This document shows, one piece after another, positions 7,755 to 37,515 of a stretch of 37,852 nucleotides of DNA. Below the pieces are notes generated by a model, which saw only the letters and a list, made by a program, of their open reading frames with translations, was not told where the DNA came from and did no database searches. Made by a program: the position numbers and the translations under genes. Every line of letters starts with the position of its first letter. Position 1 is the stretch's first letter. Origin of the DNA: Sulfuritalea sp. (GTDB lineage: Bacteria > Pseudomonadota > Gammaproteobacteria > Burkholderiales > Rhodocyclaceae); the NCBI GenBank assembly GCA_030651305.1, contig JAUSCI010000060.1:1-37852 (forward strand), written 5' to 3'.

Positions 7755-8258
7755 ATGGATGCCGATCTCGTCGCCTTGTCGGCAGCCTTGGGATCGGCCG
7801 CATTGGCCAGACCCGACCAGCGCCGACTTCTGCTCGCTACCGCCGAGTCTTGCACCGGAGGCTGGGCGGCGCAAGTAATCACTCACACGGCGGGAAGTTC
7901 GGCATGGTTCGAGCGCGGGTTTATCACCTACAGCGACCAAGCCAAGGTCGATATGCTTGGCGTGCGACTGCAAACCCTCGAAAAATTCGGTGCCGTGAGC
8001 CCGGAAACTGCGGTGGAAATGGCCACCGGTGCGCTGAAGAACTCCAATGCCTTGATTTCGTTGGCTATAACTGGAATCGCCGGGCCGACGGGTGGCTCAC
8101 CTGGTAAGCCAGTGGGCACCGTATGCTTTGCCTGGTGTCGGGTCGGTGAAGCAGCGAACGCGGAATCCGCGGTTTTTGCCGGTGACCGCGAGGCGATCCG
8201 CCGTCAGGCGGTGGTTCATGCCCTGCGCGGCTTGCTGCTGCGACTCGATGCAGCTTGA
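7755..8258 (+). CDS. pncC: Nicotinamide-nucleotide amidohydrolase (CinA C-terminal family)
   Basis: Deamidates nicotinamide mononucleotide to nicotinate mononucleotide in the pyridine nucleotide salvage cycle. The 167 residues form a stand-alone CinA C-terminal domain: [16 protein letters not shown] with the conserved Ser/Cys region, [30 protein letters not shown] and [11 protein letters not shown], followed by [10 protein letters not shown]. The ATG follows the pgpA stop with no gap. pncC next to recA is a well-known neighbourhood in proteobacteria. Confidence 0.95.
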
Positions 8259-8326
8259 AAACCGGGGTAGCGCAAAAACTGTGCCATCCATGCCATAATC
8301 GAAGCACAACTGAAGGAAGCTATTCA

Positions 8327-9358
8327 ATGGACGAGAACAAGAGCAAGGCACTCCAGGCCGCCCTGGCCCAGATCGAAAAACAGTTCGGCAAGGGCTCCAT
8401 CATGAAGATGGGCGAAGGCCTGGCGATCGACGACATTCAAACCGTTTCCACCGGCTCCCTGGGGCTGGATATCGCTCTCGGCATCGGCGGTCTGCCGCGT
8501 GGGCGGGTGGTCGAGGTTTATGGACCGGAGTCTTCGGGCAAGACCACGCTGTGTCTGCACATCGTGGCCGAAATCCAGAAAGCCGGGGGCACCGCGGCCT
8601 ACATCGATGCCGAAAACGCGCTGGATCCCGGATACGCGGCAAAACTCGGGGTGAACGTACCCGACCTGCTGATTTCGCAACCCGACACCGGCGAACAGGG
8701 CCTAGAGATCACCGACATGCTGGTGCGCTCCGGCGGCGTCGATTGCATCGTGATCGATTCGGTCGCCGCGCTAACGCCGCGCGCCGAAATCGAGGGCGAA
8801 ATGGGCGACCAGTTGCCCGGCCTGCAGGCGCGGCTGATGTCGCAGGCGCTGCGCAAGCTCACCGCCAACATCAAGCGCACCAACACGCTGGTGATTTTCA
8901 TCAACCAGATCCGCATGAAGATCGGCGTCATGTTCGGCAACCCCGAAACCACGACAGGCGGCAATGCGCTGAAGTTCTACGCCTCGGTGCGCATGGACAT
9001 CCGCCGCACCGGCGCCATCAAGAAGGGCGACGAAGTGATCGGCAACGAGACCAAGGTCAAGGTGGTCAAGAACAAGGTCGCGCCGCCCTTCCGCGAGGCT
9101 CGTTTCGACATCCTCTATGGCGAAGGCATTTCGCGTCAGGGTGAAATCGTCGAACTCGGCGTTGAACACAAGATTGTCGAGAAGTCGGGCGCCTGGTACG
9201 CCTACAAGGGAGAAAAGATCGGCCAGGGCAAGGACAACGCCCGTGAATTCCTGCGCGAACATCCGGAGATCGCCGTGGAAATCGAAAACCTGGTGCGGGA
9301 GGCCGTGGGTGTTGCCGTTCCAGGCGTCGCCGAACCTGCGAAAGGAAGCCAGGCCTAG
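8327..9358 (+). CDS. recA: Recombinase RecA
   Basis: DNA-dependent ATPase for homologous recombination and activator of SOS autocleavage. The 343 residues begin [20 protein letters not shown] and contain the Walker [10 protein letters not shown], the Walker B region [14 protein letters not shown], the L2-loop stretch [20 protein letters not shown], and a C-terminal domain ending in a short tail. The ATG at 8327 with GAAGGA upstream matches the family N-terminus; the open frame extends back to 8255 but would overlap pncC. In the 68-base gap I see no clear CTGT-N8-ACAG LexA box. recX follows after 65 bases. Confidence 0.98.
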
Positions 9359-30802: not shown

Positions 30803-31525
30803 CTAGTCGATTAGACCCAGGCGCATCGCCAGGGTCACGGCATGCGTCTTGTTGGTCGCTCCGAGCTTGGTGATGATGTTGCCGATATGAAAGTTGGCAG
30901 TACGTTCGCCAACGCCAGTCAGTGCCGCGATATCGCCTGCGGTGCCGCCTTCGGAGGCCAGACGCAGAACCTCTATCTCGCGCTCGGAAAGTCTGGGGCT
31001 GCATTCGTTGCGCTGGCGGGCGAGGAAGGGGCGAAACAGCCTGGCATGAACCACCTGCGCCAGCCATTGCATCATCGGCAGTTTCGCCTCCAGCTCGTCG
31101 GTGCTGATGGCGCCCTGACTGCGGGCCAGGGTCAGTACGCCGAATTTTCCGTTGGTATCGCGCAGCGGCTGCGTCCAGCCGTGGTTAAAGCCGATCTCCC
31201 TGGCATCCCTGGCAAGCGCCGGATCGAACAGGGCGCTGGACCAGGTCAAGGGCAGAACATTGGTCTTGGCATGTTCTATCGTCGGGTCGATCGCCTGGTA
31301 GCCCTGCCTCAGATAGTGCTCCTGCCAGGATCGGGGAAAATTGCTGGTCATCACGAAGCGCCAGCCGGCGCCTCTCACGGGAACGCCGATCAGGTAGCCG
31401 CAGTGCTCGAAGCCGAGGCTGCGAGCACCGAGCACCACGCCCCGGAAAAAATTCCGATGCGCGTTGTGGACCAACAGCAAGTGCGGCGATTCCCGGTGCG
31501 GAGTTGTAGGGTAGTGATCGGTCAT
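30803..31525 (-). CDS. LuxR-family regulator with autoinducer-binding domain (solo)
   Basis: A 240-residue regulator with an N-terminal autoinducer-binding domain and a C-terminal GerE helix-turn-helix. Residues that hold the acyl-homoserine lactone in TraR/LuxR have counterparts here: Trp67 and Tyr71 (SWQEHYLRQGY), Asp80-Pro81 (AIDPTIEH), Trp95 (LPLTWSSALF) and a Gly at 116 (NHGWTQPL). The HTH reads LSEREIEVLRLASEGGTAGD, then ANFHIGNIITKLGATNKTHA. No luxI is in the window, so it is a solo or is served by a distant synthase. An upstream ATG at 31561 is an alternative start. It is divergent from the sensor kinase, with a lux-box-like site between them. Confidence 0.92.
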   Translation of the reverse strand: MTDHYPTTPHRESPHLLLVHNAHRNFFRGVVLGARSLGFEHCGYLIGVPVRGAGWRFVMTSNFPRSWQEHYLRQGYQAIDPTIEHAKTNVLPLTWSSALFDPALARDAREIGFNHGWTQPLRDTNGKFGVLTLARSQGAISTDELEAKLPMMQWLAQVVHARLFRPFLARQRNECSPRLSEREIEVLRLASEGGTAGDIAALTGVGERTANFHIGNIITKLGATNKTHAVTLAMRLGLID

Positions 31526-31589
31526 CGAGCGATACTCATTCTGGTTCGCGGATCGCGTCATTCATTTCACTTGTAGCGGGAAGCAATCG

Positions 31590-31636
31590 ACCTGTCAACT
31601 CTGACAGTTATGGCCGGGAGCGATCTTCGCTATCAT
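31590..31636 (+). promoter_or_regulatory. Lux-box-like site with class II promoter upstream of lqsS
   Basis: ACCTGTCAACTCTGACAGTT at 31590-31609 contains the perfect dyad CTGTCA-ACTC-TGACAG and matches the ACCTGT-N8-ACAGGT lux-box pattern except for one base. A TATCAT hexamer starts at 31631, exactly 21 bases after the box, which places the box over the -35 position, as in LuxR-activated promoters. The predicted start of transcription is near 31643, about 94 bases before the lqsS ATG. On the other strand a weaker TGAAAT (31569-31564) could serve luxR itself. Confidence 0.75.
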
Positions 31637-31736
31637 GGTCCCGAAGCACCGTCGCCATGAAGCCATTTCTTCCCTCACCCATCACCCTGCGATCGCCCCC
31701 CGGCCGCGAGCGCGCGCCGCTTGCAATGAGCGCCCG

Positions 31737-33044
31737 ATGAAGCTCACCGGTTCCAGTCTGAGGCAGGCGGCGGCGCGGCTGTTCGAGCCGGCCTTGCGCA
31801 ATGTCGAATATTTTCAGCGTCGACTCACGGCGTTTGCCATTATCGGCATCATCGCCTTTCCGTTCTACTACTGGGTCTGGCACAGCGTCTTCCCGCAGCC
31901 CTACGAAAATCTCGCCCTGCGGCTGGTCGGCTCGGCCCTGTTCATTCCGCTTGTCTTCAGCAAGCGCTGGCCCCCGGCCTTGAAAGCCTGCCTGCCGTAC
32001 TACTGGTATTTTTCCCTGCTCTACTCCCTGCCGTTCTTCTTCACCTTCATGCTGCTGAAGAACAACGGCTCGGATGTCTGGGTCGGCTCGGCCCTGGTGG
32101 CGGTTTTCGTGATGATCCTGCTGCTCGACTGGATCACCCTGATCGCCCACTTTGTCCTCGGTACGGGCCTGGCCATCATCGCCTTCAGGCTGACCAGCGA
32201 TATTTCATTCACCGCCTACCATCACTACGAGTACCTGGCAATCGCGCTGTTTGCCGTGGTGGCCGGAGCCGTGTCGAACTACGACAGCGAGCGCATCCGC
32301 ATCGAACAGGAACGGGCGATGCTGGCGACGGCAGGAAGCATCGCCCACGAACTGCGTACGCCACTGCTGGGCATCCGCGCCGGCGCCGCCGGTCTCGACA
32401 AGTACCTGCCGACCCTGATCGAAGCTTATCGACTGGCGCTGCAGCACGAACTCCCGGTCGCCGCCGTTCGGACCGCACACCTGGATGCGCTGAAAAGCGT
32501 GCTCGATAACATCGATGCCGAAGCCCGCCACTCCAATGCCATTATCGACATGCTGCTGGTCAATGCCCGCGCAACGGGCGCCGTTGCACAGGAAATGGTG
32601 GTCTGCTCGATGTCCCGCTGTGTCGAAATAGCCTTGCAGCGTTACCCGTTTTCCGAAGACGAACGCGCACTGGTTTCATTGCGCCCGGGCGCAGACTTCG
32701 AGTTTCGCGGCGCGGAACTGCTGATGGTCCACGTCCTCTTCAATCTCATCAAGAATGCCTTGCGCCATATCGGCAAGGCAGGCAAGGGCGATATCCTGAT
32801 CCGCGTCGAGACGGCGCGGGATTCCAATCGCCTGATCGTGCACGACACCGGCGGCGGCATTCCCCCGGATACCCTGCCGCACATCTTCAGACGCTTCTAC
32901 ACCTCCGCCGGTGACAGCGTGCTCGGCACCGGGATAGGCCTCGCCTTCTGCCGCGACGTGATGGGCTCGTTCGGCGGTACTATCGAGTGCAGTTCCGTCT
33001 ACGGTGAATTTTCCGAATTCGTCCTGACTTTTCCCCAGCCATGA
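31737..33044 (+). CDS. lqsS: LqsS/CqsS-type sensor histidine kinase
   Basis: A 435-residue membrane kinase. The N-terminal half has about six hydrophobic helices with almost no periplasmic loops (LTAFAIIGIIAFPFYYWVW, LVGSALFIPLVF, SLLYSLPFFFTFMLL, VAVFVMILLLDWITLIAHFV, LAIALFAVVAGAV), as in the alpha-hydroxyketone sensors CqsS and LqsS. HisKA has the phosphoacceptor His204 in AGSIAHELRTPLLGIRAG. The HATPase has LFNLIKNALRHI, DTGGGIPPDTLPHIF, RRFYTS and LGTGIGLAF. There is no C-terminal receiver, so it is LqsS-like rather than CqsS-like. ATG 31737 gives the family N-terminus; the frame is open back to 31635. It overlaps lqsR by four bases. Ligand assignment rests on the linked synthase. Confidence 0.87.
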   Translation: MKLTGSSLRQAAARLFEPALRNVEYFQRRLTAFAIIGIIAFPFYYWVWHSVFPQPYENLALRLVGSALFIPLVFSKRWPPALKACLPYYWYFSLLYSLPFFFTFMLLKNNGSDVWVGSALVAVFVMILLLDWITLIAHFVLGTGLAIIAFRLTSDISFTAYHHYEYLAIALFAVVAGAVSNYDSERIRIEQERAMLATAGSIAHELRTPLLGIRAGAAGLDKYLPTLIEAYRLALQHELPVAAVRTAHLDALKSVLDNIDAEARHSNAIIDMLLVNARATGAVAQEMVVCSMSRCVEIALQRYPFSEDERALVSLRPGADFEFRGAELLMVHVLFNLIKNALRHIGKAGKGDILIRVETARDSNRLIVHDTGGGIPPDTLPHIFRRFYTSAGDSVLGTGIGLAFCRDVMGSFGGTIECSSVYGEFSEFVLTFPQP

Positions 33045-34072
33045 AATCCTACGCCATTCATCCCTTCCACTTTCCGACCACGGTTGCCTTCGTCGACGAC
33101 AACCCGCAGTTTCTCGCCAACCTGAGCCTGCAGCTGGATTCGCAACTGGCCTTCCGCCTGTTCCATTCGCCGTTTTCGGCCCTGGTTGCTTTGAATGCCG
33201 CCAGCTCGGTGCCACCCATGGTCGAACGCTTCTTTTCGCTGTACCGCCATCGCGGCGACGCGAGCTACACCCGCCACGTCATCGACATCAGCCTTGACAT
33301 GATTCACCGGGAAGTGCACAACGAGCGCCGCTTCGAACAAGTATCGGTGGTGGTGGTGGATTACGACATGCCCGAGATCGATGGACTCGAATTCTGTCGC
33401 AGCCTGAAGAATCCCGCCATCAAGAAGATCCTGCTGACCGGCAAAGCCGACGAGCAGGTCGCCGTGCGTGCCTTCAATGAAAGGACCATCGACCGCTTCA
33501 TCCGCAAGCAGAACGACGACGTCATGGCCGTACTCAATCGCACCATTGCCGAACTGCAACAGGAGCACTTCGGCCAGATCGAGCACATGCTGTCCGACGC
33601 GCTCGCCGTCGGCTCGCACCTGTTTCTCGGCGATCCAGAATTTGCACGGCGCTTCGAGGAAATCCGCGAACGCCTCGGCATCGTCGAGTACTACCTGTCC
33701 TGTGCCCCGGATGGAATTCTGATGCTGGACACAACCGGCGCCGCTCACCTGCTGATCGTGCAGACGGAAGCGATGATGCAGGGTCACTACGAAGTCGCCT
33801 ACGACCAGGCGGCCCCCGAAGGCCTGCTGGAACAATTGCGCAGCGGACATTCGCTGCCCTACTTCTGGAAGACCGCCGGGAACTACTCGCCGATTTATGA
33901 AGACTGGCGAGCCTGCCTGCATCCGGCGACCGAATTCCACGGCAGGGATTGCTACCTTTACAGCCTGGTCAAGAACCCCGGCGCCTTCAACCTGAAGTAT
34001 GTCTATCCCTATAGCGAGTATCTCGACCGCCTCGACCGCGAGGCACGGCAGGGGATCACCAGTACCCCTTGA
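33041..34072 (+). CDS. lqsR: LqsR-type response regulator
   Basis: A 343-residue protein with an N-terminal receiver: acidic pair in VAFVDDNPQFLANLSLQL, the likely phosphorylated Asp107 in VVVVDYDMPEIDGLEFC, and the Lys region KKILLTGKADEQ. The receiver is enlarged by an insertion of about 45 residues (50-95) before the phosphorylation strand, as in Legionella LqsR. The long C-terminal part (about 160-343; VEYYLSCAPDGILMLDTTGA, LPYFWKTAGNYSPIYEDWRA) has no common output domain that I recognise. It overlaps the lqsS stop (ATGA) and converges with lqsA across 16 bases. Its partner is therefore the LqsS kinase. Confidence 0.85.
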   Translation: MKSYAIHPFHFPTTVAFVDDNPQFLANLSLQLDSQLAFRLFHSPFSALVALNAASSVPPMVERFFSLYRHRGDASYTRHVIDISLDMIHREVHNERRFEQVSVVVVDYDMPEIDGLEFCRSLKNPAIKKILLTGKADEQVAVRAFNERTIDRFIRKQNDDVMAVLNRTIAELQQEHFGQIEHMLSDALAVGSHLFLGDPEFARRFEEIRERLGIVEYYLSCAPDGILMLDTTGAAHLLIVQTEAMMQGHYEVAYDQAAPEGLLEQLRSGHSLPYFWKTAGNYSPIYEDWRACLHPATEFHGRDCYLYSLVKNPGAFNLKYVYPYSEYLDRLDREARQGITSTP

Positions 34073-34088
34073 TCCCCCCTCAGCGAGA

Positions 34089-35393
34089 TCAGGCCGCCTC
34101 GGCCCGTCTTGGCGCGGCATCGATGACACCATTGCTCGCGACCGCAGCGCCGACCCTGGTGCGATGCTTGCGTCGCGTCGAAGGCCATGACGCCAGGTCG
34201 ACCTCGCCGCGAATGTCGCGACAGACGGTTACGATGCGCTCCAGTTCCGCATTCGTCAGCGCGGCATTGACCGAGAAGCGCATCAGCGCGCGGCTCTTGG
34301 GCGTCGCGGGAGCGCAGAAAATCGAGCCGAATATACCCCGCGACTCAAGCGCCTCGCGCAGCACGATGGTCTGCTGCTCGGTGCCCGATTCGAGGGAGAC
34401 TATCTGCGACTGGCTGTCGTTGAGGTTGTATCCCAGTGCATCAAGTTGCGTGCGCAGATATGCGGCATTGGCGTGCAGTCTCTGCCGGCGCCAGCCCTCC
34501 AGCCTGACGACATCCAGCGTTGCGTCGAGTCCGCGTACGTCGTGGGGCAGCAGCGTGGAACTGAAAATCGCCGGATTCGATTCGCTCTTGAAATATTCCG
34601 CAAAGCGTTTCGAGCAGCTAATGAAGCCGGCCCGCCCGGCAAAGGCCTTGGCCAGGCTGGCCGTGCGGAAATGCACACGCTCGGCCAATCCCAGTTCGAC
34701 GACCAGGCCTTCGCCGTTCCGGCCATGCGTTCCCAGCGAATGCGACTCGTCGGCCACCAGCACGCATCCATGCATTTCGCATATCGCCACGATCTCCCGC
34801 AGTGGAGCAACACTGCCAGTGGTGCTGTAGATCGAATCCACCGCCACGATTCCCGGACCATAACGCAGGATCTGCCGTTCCAGATGTTCGGGGTCGTTGT
34901 GGAAGACCGTGATGGCCTTGGCGCCGGCGCTCTTGATTCCTTCCCAGAGCGACATGTGCGCCATCATGTCGGCATAGACTGGCGTCCGTTCGTCGGCAAT
35001 TGCCTGGATCAGCCCGGTGTTCGCCGCATAGCCCGACTGGCAGAGTACGCCGGATTCGGCGTGCATAAAAGCCGCCAGCCGCTGCTCCAGATCGATCTGC
35101 GGACAGGCGCCGTGCAGGAAAATGCCCGACATCAGCAAACCGTTGCCGTCGCGCCGGATGCTCTCGGCCATCGCACCCAGAATCGCTGGATGGCGAGCCA
35201 GCGAGAGGTAGTCGTTGCTGCAAAGCTGCAGGGCATTGGCGCCGGGCGTGCGGCCGCGCATGATGTGTCCGCCGTTCCAAGTGTTCTGCACCCGCTCACG
35301 GTAGTATCGTTCAACACGCAGCGACGCGAAATCGGGAAGCTCGGCATTATGCAAATGCAATGCCGGGCGAAGATTGCTTATCTTGCTTTTCAT
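34089..35393 (-). CDS. lqsA: Alpha-hydroxyketone autoinducer synthase (LqsA/CqsA type)
   Basis: A PLP-dependent alpha-oxoamine-synthase-fold enzyme of 434 residues. CqsA and LqsA make alpha-hydroxyketone signals (CAI-1, LAI-1) from acyl-CoA and an aminated substrate. Visible features are LCSNDYLSLARHPAILGAM, SGIFLHGACPQIDLEQRLAA, the cofactor-binding VLVADESHSLGTHG (Asp215, His218), and the lysine for PLP at 249 in TASLAKAFAGRAGF. A biotin (BioF) or heme (HemA) role is less likely because of the linked lqsS-lqsR and the CqsA-like NDYL and HGACPQ segments. The C-terminus (about 400-434) is longer than usual and basic. ATG 35393 follows AAGGA; an upstream ATG at 35456 is less likely. Confidence 0.88.
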   Translation of the reverse strand: MKSKISNLRPALHLHNAELPDFASLRVERYYRERVQNTWNGGHIMRGRTPGANALQLCSNDYLSLARHPAILGAMAESIRRDGNGLLMSGIFLHGACPQIDLEQRLAAFMHAESGVLCQSGYAANTGLIQAIADERTPVYADMMAHMSLWEGIKSAGAKAITVFHNDPEHLERQILRYGPGIVAVDSIYSTTGSVAPLREIVAICEMHGCVLVADESHSLGTHGRNGEGLVVELGLAERVHFRTASLAKAFAGRAGFISCSKRFAEYFKSESNPAIFSSTLLPHDVRGLDATLDVVRLEGWRRQRLHANAAYLRTQLDALGYNLNDSQSQIVSLESGTEQQTIVLREALESRGIFGSIFCAPATPKSRALMRFSVNAALTNAELERIVTVCRDIRGEVDLASWPSTRRKHRTRVGAAVASNGVIDAAPRRAEAA

Positions 35394-35760
35394 GACGTGG
35401 CATCCTTTTTGTCGGGTTGTCGGAAAACGGCGTGATCCATGAATATTCTGGCCCAATCCCGCGAAAAGCCTAGTACCAGCCCGCCCGCAATGCTTTTCCA
35501 GCCGGATTTGGGCGTCCCGCGCCCAAGTTTCAACCTGTCATTTCTGTCAGTAGGAAAGTCCACTGCTTTCGCTTAGGCTTGGGATGCACTTCAGCCTGAC
35601 TCGACCGCCGGCAATGGACGCCCCTGCGTCATGGCACTTGCGCGAGCGTTTCGAACCCACCCGGTTGGTCTTGTCGGCTTCGAGCCACAACGCAGCTACC
35701 CGGCCGCTACCTCGGAGCAATAGCGGGCGCCGGCGATTCACCCCAAAGGGAGCAGACTTC
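35394..35760. other. Intergenic region between lqsA and the hybrid kinase
   Basis: 367 bases without a convincing gene. It holds the second lux-box-like site (35533-35552) and its -10-like hexamer. The hybrid-kinase frame is open back to 35584, but those residues look like non-coding sequence and lack a ribosome-binding site. The lqsA promoter should also be here, on the minus strand; I found no clear hexamer pair for it. Confidence 0.6.
35533..35579 (+). promoter_or_regulatory. Second lux-box-like site with -10 element upstream of the hybrid kinase
   Basis: ACCTGTCATTTCTGTCAGTA at 35533-35552 agrees with the site at 31590 in 16 of 20 positions, including the whole ACCTGTCA half. The right half (TGTCAG) has one change from a perfect dyad. 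A TAGGCT hexamer starts at 35574, again exactly 21 bases after the box. The resulting transcript would begin near 35586 and lead into the hybrid kinase at 35761. It may also act on the divergent lqsA. Confidence 0.6.
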
Positions 35761-37515
35761 ATGACTGCAAGAATTTCAGCCAAGAGAACGCAAAAAGTCC
35801 CGGTTCGCGTGGCGCAGTTCGGCATCGCGCGCGCTTCCGGTATGGCCGGTCCTGCCGTTGAGAGTTCGTTGCGCCGTCCGGCGCAACGAAACTCGCAGGA
35901 TCATCGCGCAGAACTTGAGAAGCTGGTGCTCGAACGCACCGCCGAGTTGCGCCAGGCACTCGAGACGGCGCAACGGACTGACAAGGCGAAGGACGCGTTC
36001 ATCGCCAATGTCAGCCACGAGCTGCGTACGCCGCTGGGCGCGATCACGGGCTTGTCGGCCCTGGCGCTGGAGCACAGCGACGATGCGCGGCAAAGGGATT
36101 ACCTGGAAAAGATCTGCAACGCCGGGCGCCACATGGCACGCATCATCAACGACCTGCTCGATTTGTCCAAGGTCGTCGCCGGCCACATGGAATTCGAAAG
36201 CATCCCCTTCCGCCTGCGCGCCATGATCCAGCATGCCCAAGACGTAATACGGCACAAGGCCGAAGCCAAGAGTCTGTGGCTTCGCTTCCGGATTCGTGAC
36301 GAGGTACCCGACATCCTGATCGGCGACCCCTTGCGGCTCGAGCAGATCATGCTCAATCTCGTCGGCAATGCCATCAAGTTCACCACCACTGGCGGCGTCG
36401 AGGTGCGCATCGCCCATCTTGCCAGTGCCGACGGGCGCATCTGGCTCGCCATCGACGTCGAGGACAGCGGTGTTGGCATACGCTCCGAAGACCTCGCCGG
36501 ACTGTTCCAGCCCTTCGCCCAAGCCGAGGTCTCGACCACCCGCAAATACGGCGGCACCGGTCTCGGGCTGGCGCTCAGCCAGCACCTGGCGCAATTGATG
36601 GATGGCGGCATCAGCATCAGCAGCCGCGAGGGGATCGGCAGCATTTTCAGCCTCAAGATCCGCCTCGGGGTCGGCCAGGCCGCAAACCTGTCCGAGAATC
36701 AGGCCAGCGCGGCAGCGCCTGCCATGCGCGAGCACTACGAAAACGCCCTCATCCTGGTCGTCGAAGACGATTCGATAAACATCGAAATCGTCGGCGAGCT
36801 GCTGGGCGACATCGGCATCACTCCGCGCGTGGCACGCAACGGTCAGGACGCCCTCGCGATACTGACCGAGGCTGGCCCCGGCGTCTTCGACCTGGTGCTC
36901 ATGGACATCCAGATGCCGGTCATGGACGGCCTCACCGCCACGCGCCGGATTCGCACTTGGCCCCGCTATGACAGGCTGCCGATCGTCGCCATGACGGCCC
37001 ACGCCCTGGAGCATGAAAAGCAGATTGGCGCGGCAGCCGGCATGAACGACCATGTCGTCAAGCCCTTCGACGTGGATAGTTTTTACCGAACACTGGCGAA
37101 GTGGCTACCGGCACACAAGAAGATGCTGGCGGACAGCCTCGCTACGACACCGCAACGGCCCGCTGCGCCGGAACTGCCCGCCCTGCGTGGCATCGATACT
37201 GCTCGCGCCCTGAAGCGCCTTGGCGGCAACGAGAAGCGTTATCGCCACTGGCTGATGAAATTCGTCGAGGAAAGCCCGGCCGTGGCGACCCAAGTCCGCG
37301 CGGCGCTGGCCGCCGGACAACTTGACCTGGCCACCCGAACCATGCATACGTTCAAGGGCGGCGTCGGCATGATCGGCCTGTGCGATCTGCACGAGCGCGC
37401 GGCGGCTCTCGAAGCAGCGCTGAAAACTTCGCAAGCCGCAGAGGCCGAATTGCAACAATTGGAGTGCGCCATCGCGACGGCCCGCCAAGAGATCATTTCC
37501 GCACTCGGTCTATGA
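35761..37515 (+). CDS. Soluble hybrid histidine kinase (HisKA-HATPase-REC-Hpt)
   Basis: A 584-residue kinase without membrane segments. A basic N-terminus and a short coiled coil (HRAELEKLVLERTAELRQAL) lead into HisKA with His86 (ANVSHELRTPLGAITG), HATPase (LNLVGNAIKFTTTGG, DSGVGIRSEDL, GGTGLGLALSQ), a receiver with Asp382 (VLMDIQMPVMDG), and a C-terminal Hpt domain with His529 (TRTMHTFKGGVGMIG). It can thus run a full His-Asp-His relay by itself, but a final Asp receiver must be elsewhere, and LqsR is a candidate. ATG 35761 with GGGAG about 11 bases upstream is the start. No sensor domain is recognisable, so input may come from a partner protein. It is separated from lqsA by the second lux-box-like site. 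Confidence 0.93.
   Translation: MTARISAKRTQKVPVRVAQFGIARASGMAGPAVESSLRRPAQRNSQDHRAELEKLVLERTAELRQALETAQRTDKAKDAFIANVSHELRTPLGAITGLSALALEHSDDARQRDYLEKICNAGRHMARIINDLLDLSKVVAGHMEFESIPFRLRAMIQHAQDVIRHKAEAKSLWLRFRIRDEVPDILIGDPLRLEQIMLNLVGNAIKFTTTGGVEVRIAHLASADGRIWLAIDVEDSGVGIRSEDLAGLFQPFAQAEVSTTRKYGGTGLGLALSQHLAQLMDGGISISSREGIGSIFSLKIRLGVGQAANLSENQASAAAPAMREHYENALILVVEDDSINIEIVGELLGDIGITPRVARNGQDALAILTEAGPGVFDLVLMDIQMPVMDGLTATRRIRTWPRYDRLPIVAMTAHALEHEKQIGAAAGMNDHVVKPFDVDSFYRTLAKWLPAHKKMLADSLATTPQRPAAPELPALRGIDTARALKRLGGNEKRYRHWLMKFVEESPAVATQVRAALAAGQLDLATRTMHTFKGGVGMIGLCDLHERAAALEAALKTSQAAEAELQQLECAIATARQEIISALGL

Follow-up and report, generated by a model that had tools for sequence, protein, structure and literature searches.

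The AHK locus and its LuxR neighbor

We analyzed a predicted quorum-sensing locus at positions 30803..37515 of a 37,852-nucleotide contig of Sulfuritalea sp. (JAUSCI010000060.1), the whole of which is called the window here. In this locus, genes of the Lqs type for alpha-hydroxyketone (AHK) signaling lie beside a gene for a solo LuxR-type regulator, and both divergent intergenic regions contain a LuxR-type box (31592-31607 and 35535-35550). The five genes follow one another as luxR (-), lqsS-lqsR (+), lqsA (-), and a hybrid histidine kinase gene (+). An earlier reading of this DNA from its letters alone (the sequence-only reading) had claimed five open reading frames (ORFs), all of which we found where it had placed them, with corrected starts: promoter positions and the alignments of relatives favor later starts for lqsS (31737), lqsA (35393), the hybrid kinase (35761), and luxR (31525 or 31561).

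The luxR gene (30803..31525, minus strand; alternative start 31561) encodes an N-acyl-homoserine lactone (AHL)-domain regulator that matches PF03472 (116 bits) and the GerE helix-turn-helix (HTH) family PF00196, both over cutoff, and it is the sole PF03472 protein of the window genome. It is preceded by a sigma70-like promoter (31570..31598, minus strand; TTGACA at 31598-31593, 17 nucleotides, TACAAG at 31575-31570), the -35 element of which is overlapped by box 1, the perfect palindrome CTGTCAACTCTGACAG (31592..31607, plus strand). A -10 element, TATCAT (31631..31636, plus strand), stands 23 nucleotides after box 1 and belongs to the predicted lqsS-lqsR promoter. The lqsS gene (31737..33044, plus strand) and lqsR (33041..34072, plus strand) overlap by 4 nucleotides and are followed by lqsA (34089..35393, minus strand). 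Between lqsA and the hybrid kinase lies box 2, CTGTCATTTCTGTCAG (35535..35550, plus strand), again followed after 23 nucleotides by a -10 element (TAGGCT, 35574..35579, plus strand), here of the predicted promoter of the hybrid kinase (35761..37515, plus strand; its ORF opens at 35584).

The encoded proteins fit an AHK system. LqsA carries a PF00155 domain and passes the alpha-hydroxyketone synthase model NF005526 (590.6 bits, cutoff 428), and it fails the models for bioF (256 bits, cutoff 426) and glycine C-acetyltransferase (218 bits, cutoff 460). Its best solved relative is CqsA, the synthase of the Vibrio Cqs system (CqsA/CqsS). A BioF or Kbl identity was therefore rejected, as judged by the curated cutoffs and solved relatives rather than by a tree with BioF and Kbl, and the earlier assignment as an LqsA/CqsA-type synthase stands; LqsA is thus predicted to make an alpha-hydroxyketone. 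LqsS, described earlier as a six-helix kinase, is a sensor histidine kinase (HATPase_c, 80 bits; HisKA, 23.3 bits, just under the cutoff of 26.9; His in HELRTPL) with a hydrophobic N-terminal region that is conserved across the 16 lqs-linked homologues compared. The six helices were not confirmed, given only two strong hydrophobic segments in a Kyte-Doolittle scan. LqsR has a receiver domain (Pfam) and matches the solved Legionella LqsR (6sy9) over its full length, including the LqsR-type C-terminal fold, which bears out its earlier naming; no recognized DNA-binding domain was found in it. Besides 6sy9, the structure lists from the Protein Data Bank showed receiver-domain matches only and say nothing about relatives of the C-terminal domain. 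The final LqsR set had 27 rows (L059, L104, L042, and L043 were left out, and L052, L054, and L125 were dropped where coordinates ran into a stop). The hybrid kinase has the architecture HisKA-HATPase-REC-Hpt, and the same hydropathy scan gave no strong hydrophobic segment, in agreement with its description as soluble.

Conservation of the gene order

Relatives were sought with an LqsA alignment of 18 rows in contigs from one genome per species; of the 543 that were confirmed, the best 80, and hence the nearest, were kept. A family sample comprised 395 genomes. Hybrid kinase matches below 60 bits were filtered from the locus tables, and genome counts take each locus shared by the two sets once (for example, L046=L163, L051=L164, L050=L168, L048=L169, and L049=L170). 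The order kinase-lqsA-lqsR-lqsS-luxR was kept in 5 of the 80 loci (L046-L050, from Rhodocyclales or Sulfuritalea metagenome-assembled genomes (MAGs); tblastn), of which L048 belongs to a Sulfuritalea sp., the genus of the window, and it recurs in the family-sample genome G598 (L171). The sequence-only reading had made its case depend on such co-occurrence of luxR and the hybrid kinase with lqs, and across these six other genomes the proteins are 51-94% identical to those of the window. Two further Rhodocyclaceae loci have luxR at lqs without the hybrid kinase: L051, and L165 (G413; no kinase match of 60 bits). In the family sample, lqsA is present in 12 out of 395 genomes; G450 and G502 have neither luxR nor the kinase beside lqs, and the usual lqs locus, in Paraburkholderia and others, consists of lqsA-lqsR-lqsS only.

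Co-occurrence is pronounced within the window's genus, where a PF03472 LuxR was found in all six sampled lqsA genomes versus 1 out of 17 without lqsA. The nine lqs-linked LuxRs of Rhodocyclaceae form one clade (support 98/100, 35-row tree), and the LuxR and LqsA trees have an identical topology among the seven five-gene genomes. Counting all 102 loci, duplicates included, a LuxR-type HTH lies at most 0.6 kb from an lqs gene in 12, with two weak matches excluded (L078 and L087; 0.3 kb from lqsS, E about 1e-5, in 485-aa ORFs). Three farther weak matches (L066, L071, and L104) were likewise not counted.

Most or part of the AHL motif is absent from the HTH neighbors in L041, L042, and L043; in the LuxR of L041 its W and Y are lost. 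In L081 (Burkholderia sp. SRS-46), an AHL-domain LuxR that is 31% identical (7914-8609, minus strand) and has IDS in place of IDP is encoded divergently from lqsA, and the LuxI matches of that genome lie elsewhere. Histidine or hybrid kinases 31-38% identical to that of the window lie several kb from lqs in other lineages (L053, L057, L058, L060, L068, and L120), and a kinase neighbor of lqs may be a wider theme.

LuxR boxes and promoter geometry

In an alignment of the lqsA-kinase intergenic region (window and L046-L051), a single block is strongly conserved, TACTGACAGAAATGACAGGT or a sequence near it, and the rest aligns poorly; read toward the kinase, the block is ACCTGTCATTTCTG(T/A)CAG. 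The 16-mer CTGTCATTTCTGWCAG is present at all seven loci that have the hybrid kinase. It occurs 18 times in the family sample, in seven genomes (G000, G413, G546, G598, G618, G721, and G753) that each have a luxR-linked lqs locus, and not once in the remaining 388 (Fisher p 3e-14, with kinship not adjusted for). We found no copy in G450, G472, G502, and G683, the four genomes in which lqsA has no luxR linked to it, or in 17 genomes of the same genus without lqs, and none of the reversed 16-mer in all 395. Each of the seven box-bearing genomes has one PF03472 protein at E 1e-10. The pattern CTGTCAN4TGNCAG has seven exact sites in the 3.9 Mb window genome, two of which are boxes 1 and 2; with one mismatch allowed it gives 73 strand-hits versus 32 for the reversed pattern.

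The boxes also share their placement. When we read 19 boxes with their flanks (the 18 exact family-sample sites plus that of L047), TANNNT stood exactly 23 nucleotides downstream of the 16-mer in 19 out of 19, and nowhere else among offsets of 10 to 37, over a background of 0.27% of positions (nine stretches of the window genome). This spacing puts the box center near -42.5, which we take to be the class-II position of LuxR-type activators. At the locus, box 2 is thereby directed toward the hybrid kinase and box 1 toward lqsS, and L046 and L051 have TANNNT at the same distance from box 1. A looser spaced pattern gave 24 sites in the nine luxR-lqs genomes (reversed control 9) and 4 sites in the 17 same-genus genomes without lqs (reversed control 6). 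The joint circuit that the sequence-only reading had inferred thus gains support at the DNA level from conserved, correctly spaced boxes at the kinase and lqsS promoters. Because box 2 is 142 nucleotides from the lqsA start, an effect on lqsA too is possible. The luxR promoter itself, TTGACA-17-TACAA(A/G), is shared by the window and six of the eight relatives' loci scanned (L046-L050 and L171); L051 has the variant TTGACA-17-TGAAAT, and no TTGACA-17-type promoter was found before luxR in L165.

Across 103 lqs stretches, a looser palindrome, CTGNNAN4TNNCAG, also gave 17 matches in 15 loci that have no neighboring luxR; each of these lies inside lqsR (L076) or at least 2 kb from the lqsA and lqsS starts. 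In L042 (11795-12652) and L043 (11738-12715), which belong to another family of the same order, the neighbor of lqsS encodes a LuxR-HTH protein whose N-terminal domain is divergent. Just upstream of lqsA, both loci also have a perfect CTGTCAN4TGACAG palindrome (L042:8258 and L043:8265), with no -10 at +23. This is possibly a second, independent LuxR-lqs link. We treated the boxes as a hint only; the second palindrome of each locus extends over the start codon of luxR, where its conservation is confounded by that of the coding sequence.

Candidate targets outside the locus

Twelve of the 19 boxes lie outside the locus. Type I secretion-like ABC transporters are encoded directly downstream of the boxes in L223, L224, and L227, and as the second gene in L229. 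The L224 transporter (PF00664 and PF00005) was scanned with Pfam, as was one in L174 that is not downstream of its box, and those of L223, L227, and L229 were recognized by likeness. In L225, a Tle1-like hydrolase (PF09994) follows a first small gene. J-domain-like proteins, recognized by likeness and without a Pfam match, are encoded downstream of the boxes in L226 and L229. In the window genome itself, one off-locus box (C9:1951, L174) is followed by a lipoprotein-like ORF and by another that is truncated at the end of the contig, neither with a Pfam match. As judged from these sequences, secretion is a theme of the candidate regulon. Small, acidic, mutually similar proteins without Pfam match are encoded behind a LuxR box both in the window genome (L175, 4573-4908) and in L222 (a 93-aa ORF), and are perhaps secreted.

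The LuxR protein and its ligand

The sequence-only reading had described an intact AHL pocket. All six residues of the WYDPWG motif are indeed intact in the window LuxR, as they are in 8 out of 9 lqs-linked Rhodocyclaceae LuxRs (in L050, Gly is replaced by Ala). The description does not hold at the position of TraR Tyr53, which is Phe75 in the window LuxR; this residue contacts the ligand in TraR, and Tyr is usual there but is not known to be required. Among the nine lqs-linked LuxRs the position is Phe, Leu, or Tyr, and Tyr was found in 3 out of 9, compared to 19 out of 22 other family LuxRs with loci fetched (unadjusted p 0.007, for a position picked after the data were seen). A WYDPWG-type motif alone does not fix the ligand specificity of a LuxR, according to excerpts of PMC4414361.

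A partner synthase was sought with the LuxI family PF00765, and the draft assembly of the window genome gave no match, in a search in which none of 14 control genomes matched either; positive controls came from separate searches of other genomes. No match was found in 7 out of the 9 luxR-lqs genomes, again drafts, and the other two, G402 and G413, have one borderline match each (24.4 bits, cutoff 24). With OlsB, an ornithine acyltransferase, the G402 protein reaches 182.6 bits, which is under that model's cutoff, versus 32 for the TraI synthase; the G413 protein and its neighbor look alike. Clear LuxI proteins were found in G007 (with one internal stop), G255, and G405. Seven genomes were tested out of the 31 whose LuxR is not lqs-linked, and five of them have a clear LuxI (G479, G470, G683, G502, and G781, the last at a contig end); none was found in G513, and G738 gave a match of 25 bits. 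G502 (C3:97264-99006) and G683 (C28:305037-306804) keep a luxI-luxR pair that is not linked to their lqs loci (L173 and L063), and a palindrome lies in or close to the gap between the two genes; this is perhaps the ancestral arrangement.

An AHL-like ligand from other bacteria remains the default reading for the window LuxR, and the ligand is the least certain step of the circuit that we propose below. The earlier suggestion that two signal languages, hydroxyketone and lactone-like, meet in this locus is accordingly unproven.

Proposed circuit and alternative explanations

Gene content, conservation, the matching trees of the five-gene genomes, the position and spacing of the boxes, and, in the family sample, their confinement to genomes with a luxR-linked lqs locus are read directly from the DNA. 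We consider it probable that this Sulfuritalea-like clade of Rhodocyclaceae has an AHK locus of the Lqs/Jqs type into which a solo LuxR is built as a direct transcriptional regulator. Wiring of LuxR into the locus at the promoter level is well supported by the sequence. Given the spaced boxes, one AHL-domain LuxR, and no LuxI found, LuxR very probably regulates the hydroxyketone system directly. In the circuit that we propose, where box binding and activation by LuxR are predicted, as are the roles of the enzyme and the sensor, LqsA would produce an AHK that LqsS senses, upon which LqsS would phosphorylate LqsR. LuxR would be expressed from its own sigma70-like promoter and, when active, would bind the palindromic boxes centered near -42.5 and activate transcription in the class-II manner. 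Its targets would be the hybrid kinase, at all seven loci found to have it; lqsS-lqsR, in the window, L046, and L051; and a few unlinked genes, namely type I secretion transporters, a Tle1-like hydrolase operon, and small proteins. LuxR probably also represses itself at box 1 on the lqsS side, because this box overlaps the luxR -35 element.

Several observations weigh against this proposal or narrow it. The majority of lqs loci have no LuxR neighbor, so LuxR is not needed for AHK signaling in general, and at L041 and L081, where lqs does have such a neighbor, the locus lacks a box. The LqsA tree groups L165 with L063 and L173, which are Propionivibrio-type lqs loci without a linked luxR, and gives L051 no definite place, so that co-inheritance is established for the seven five-gene genomes only. 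An eighth luxR-lqs genome (G724, L051) has a variant instead of the exact 16-mer. Besides the window, only L046 and L051 have a clear box at lqsS, and box 1 is missing from L047-L050. The palindromes of L165, some 0.45 kb upstream of lqsA and 0.6 kb past luxR, lack the +23 spacing. The genomes are related, and the p-values therefore overstate independence. The candidate regulon genes are our own ORF calls, made from length and the GC content of codon positions, and seven of the ten proteins scanned had no Pfam match, a set that includes three not known to be direct targets. Finally, the generic palindrome CTGNCAN4TGNCAG is near the reversed control in the eight sister luxR-lqs genomes, the exception being the window genome (11 versus 1), and it is enriched in G472 (16 versus 0; L055 and L167), an lqs genome not among the PF03472-positive ones, as well as in G683 (17 versus 3), where luxR is not linked to lqs. 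The enrichment in G472 and G683 means that similar sites can serve other regulators too, and another regulator may use those of G472. We therefore rejected the bare palindrome count as evidence for a regulon; discrimination came only from the specific 16-mer and from the spaced pattern.

These data also bear on other explanations. LuxR could be an ordinary AHL eavesdropper that merely adjoins lqs and answers the lactones of neighbors, with any effect on the hydroxyketone genes incidental. The intact WYDPWG motif, in the window and most of the linked LuxRs, and the lack of a clear LuxI in luxR-lqs genomes agree with this, and LuxR solos that respond to exogenous AHLs are a recognized class (excerpts of PMC10134790). 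However, the exactly spaced boxes at the hybrid kinase and lqsS promoters and the joint occurrence of luxR and lqsA in the genus argue that the luxR-lqs link is not incidental, which makes this explanation improbable; eavesdropping itself is compatible with LuxR as a direct regulator of the locus. It is a good deal less likely that another regulator binds the box and that luxR is a passenger of shared ancestry. In related genomes box and luxR could be co-inherited for other reasons, G472 is enriched in generic palindromes, and the divergent LuxR-HTH proteins of L042 and L043 have similar palindromes nearby. Against this stand a CTG-N10-CAG-type box between luxI and luxR in a relative (G683:C28:305657), the absence of exact boxes from the 17 same-genus genomes without lqs, and the class-II spacing of 19 out of 19 boxes. 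That the gene order reflects chance or a mobile island without a joint circuit, as the patchy distribution of lqsA might suggest, is hardly credible, since order and promoter architecture are kept in six other genomes at the protein divergence given above.

A reading that goes beyond direct regulation by LuxR, and that we regard as doubtful, is that LqsA has replaced LuxI: LuxR would have lost its lactone partner, joined lqs, and come to respond in the cytoplasm to what LqsA makes or to a related compound, so that one signal would have two receptors. As part of this joint reading, the membrane-bound LqsS and the cytoplasmic LuxR would close on each other via the boxes in front of lqsS-lqsR and of the hybrid kinase. 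In line with it are the distribution of strong LuxI proteins (5 out of 7 genomes with an unlinked LuxR versus 0 out of 9 with an lqs-linked one) and the loss of Tyr at the TraR Tyr53 position in six of nine; the intact WYDPWG motif counts against it. If LuxR did sense a hydroxyketone, it would be a LuxR-type receptor for this class of signals, the known receptors of which are, to our knowledge, membrane kinases. As far as we know, the route from hydroxyketone signaling to DNA is poorly known outside Vibrio. LuxR is a plausible DNA-binding arm for such signaling here: its box is defined, the geometry of the promoters is exact, and target genes can be named, which makes the circuit accessible to reporter tests in E. 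coli.

Relation to known systems

A close parallel, likewise from betaproteobacteria, is the Jqs system (jqsA-jqsS-jqsR) of Janthinobacterium and Duganella, in which synthase, sensor kinase, and LqsR-type regulator are also adjacent. As with the boxes described here, regulated genes and jqsA itself have a palindrome upstream of them (excerpts of PMC3566124 and PMC5080296). The excerpted text of both papers describes no adjacent LuxR or hybrid kinase, and mentions luxR solos elsewhere in some such genomes. The JAI-1 motif reported for Janthinobacterium is TTGAN6/7TCAA (excerpts of the same two papers); we rejected it as a regulatory site here, as it has no match in the window or in seven of the eight relatives' loci, and the two matches in L165 are not within 2 kb of lqsA or luxR. 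The Lqs system of Legionella pneumophila has a different order, with hdeD between convergent lqsS and lqsR, and no LuxR is mentioned in the excerpts of PMC3376566. The cqs cluster of V. cholerae, unlike the window locus, has no LqsR homologue (excerpts of PMC3566124).

On the side of the regulator, LuxR solos include the non-AHL receptors PluR and PauR, which like the window LuxR have an AHL domain without a LuxI found. Their motifs, TYDQCS and TYDQYI, differ at four positions from WYDPWG, which the window LuxR keeps (excerpts of PMC4414361), and unlike them the window LuxR has an entire hydroxyketone two-component system as its neighbor. A term search of the main text of a review of LuxR solos (PMC10134790) gave neither 'lqs' nor 'hydroxyketone', and among the papers listed in our searches of an open-access library, none has a title or abstract that links a LuxR with an lqs locus. 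The lqs and jqs loci themselves are known; what appears to be new here is a solo LuxR that is predicted to be wired at the promoter level into a hydroxyketone locus. Clusters resembling lqs have been noted before in Burkholderia, Polaromonas, and others (excerpts of PMC3376566). Among the loci that we collected, one from a MAG labelled Bordetella parapertussis (L083) also has an lqs cluster, and its label is probably wrong.

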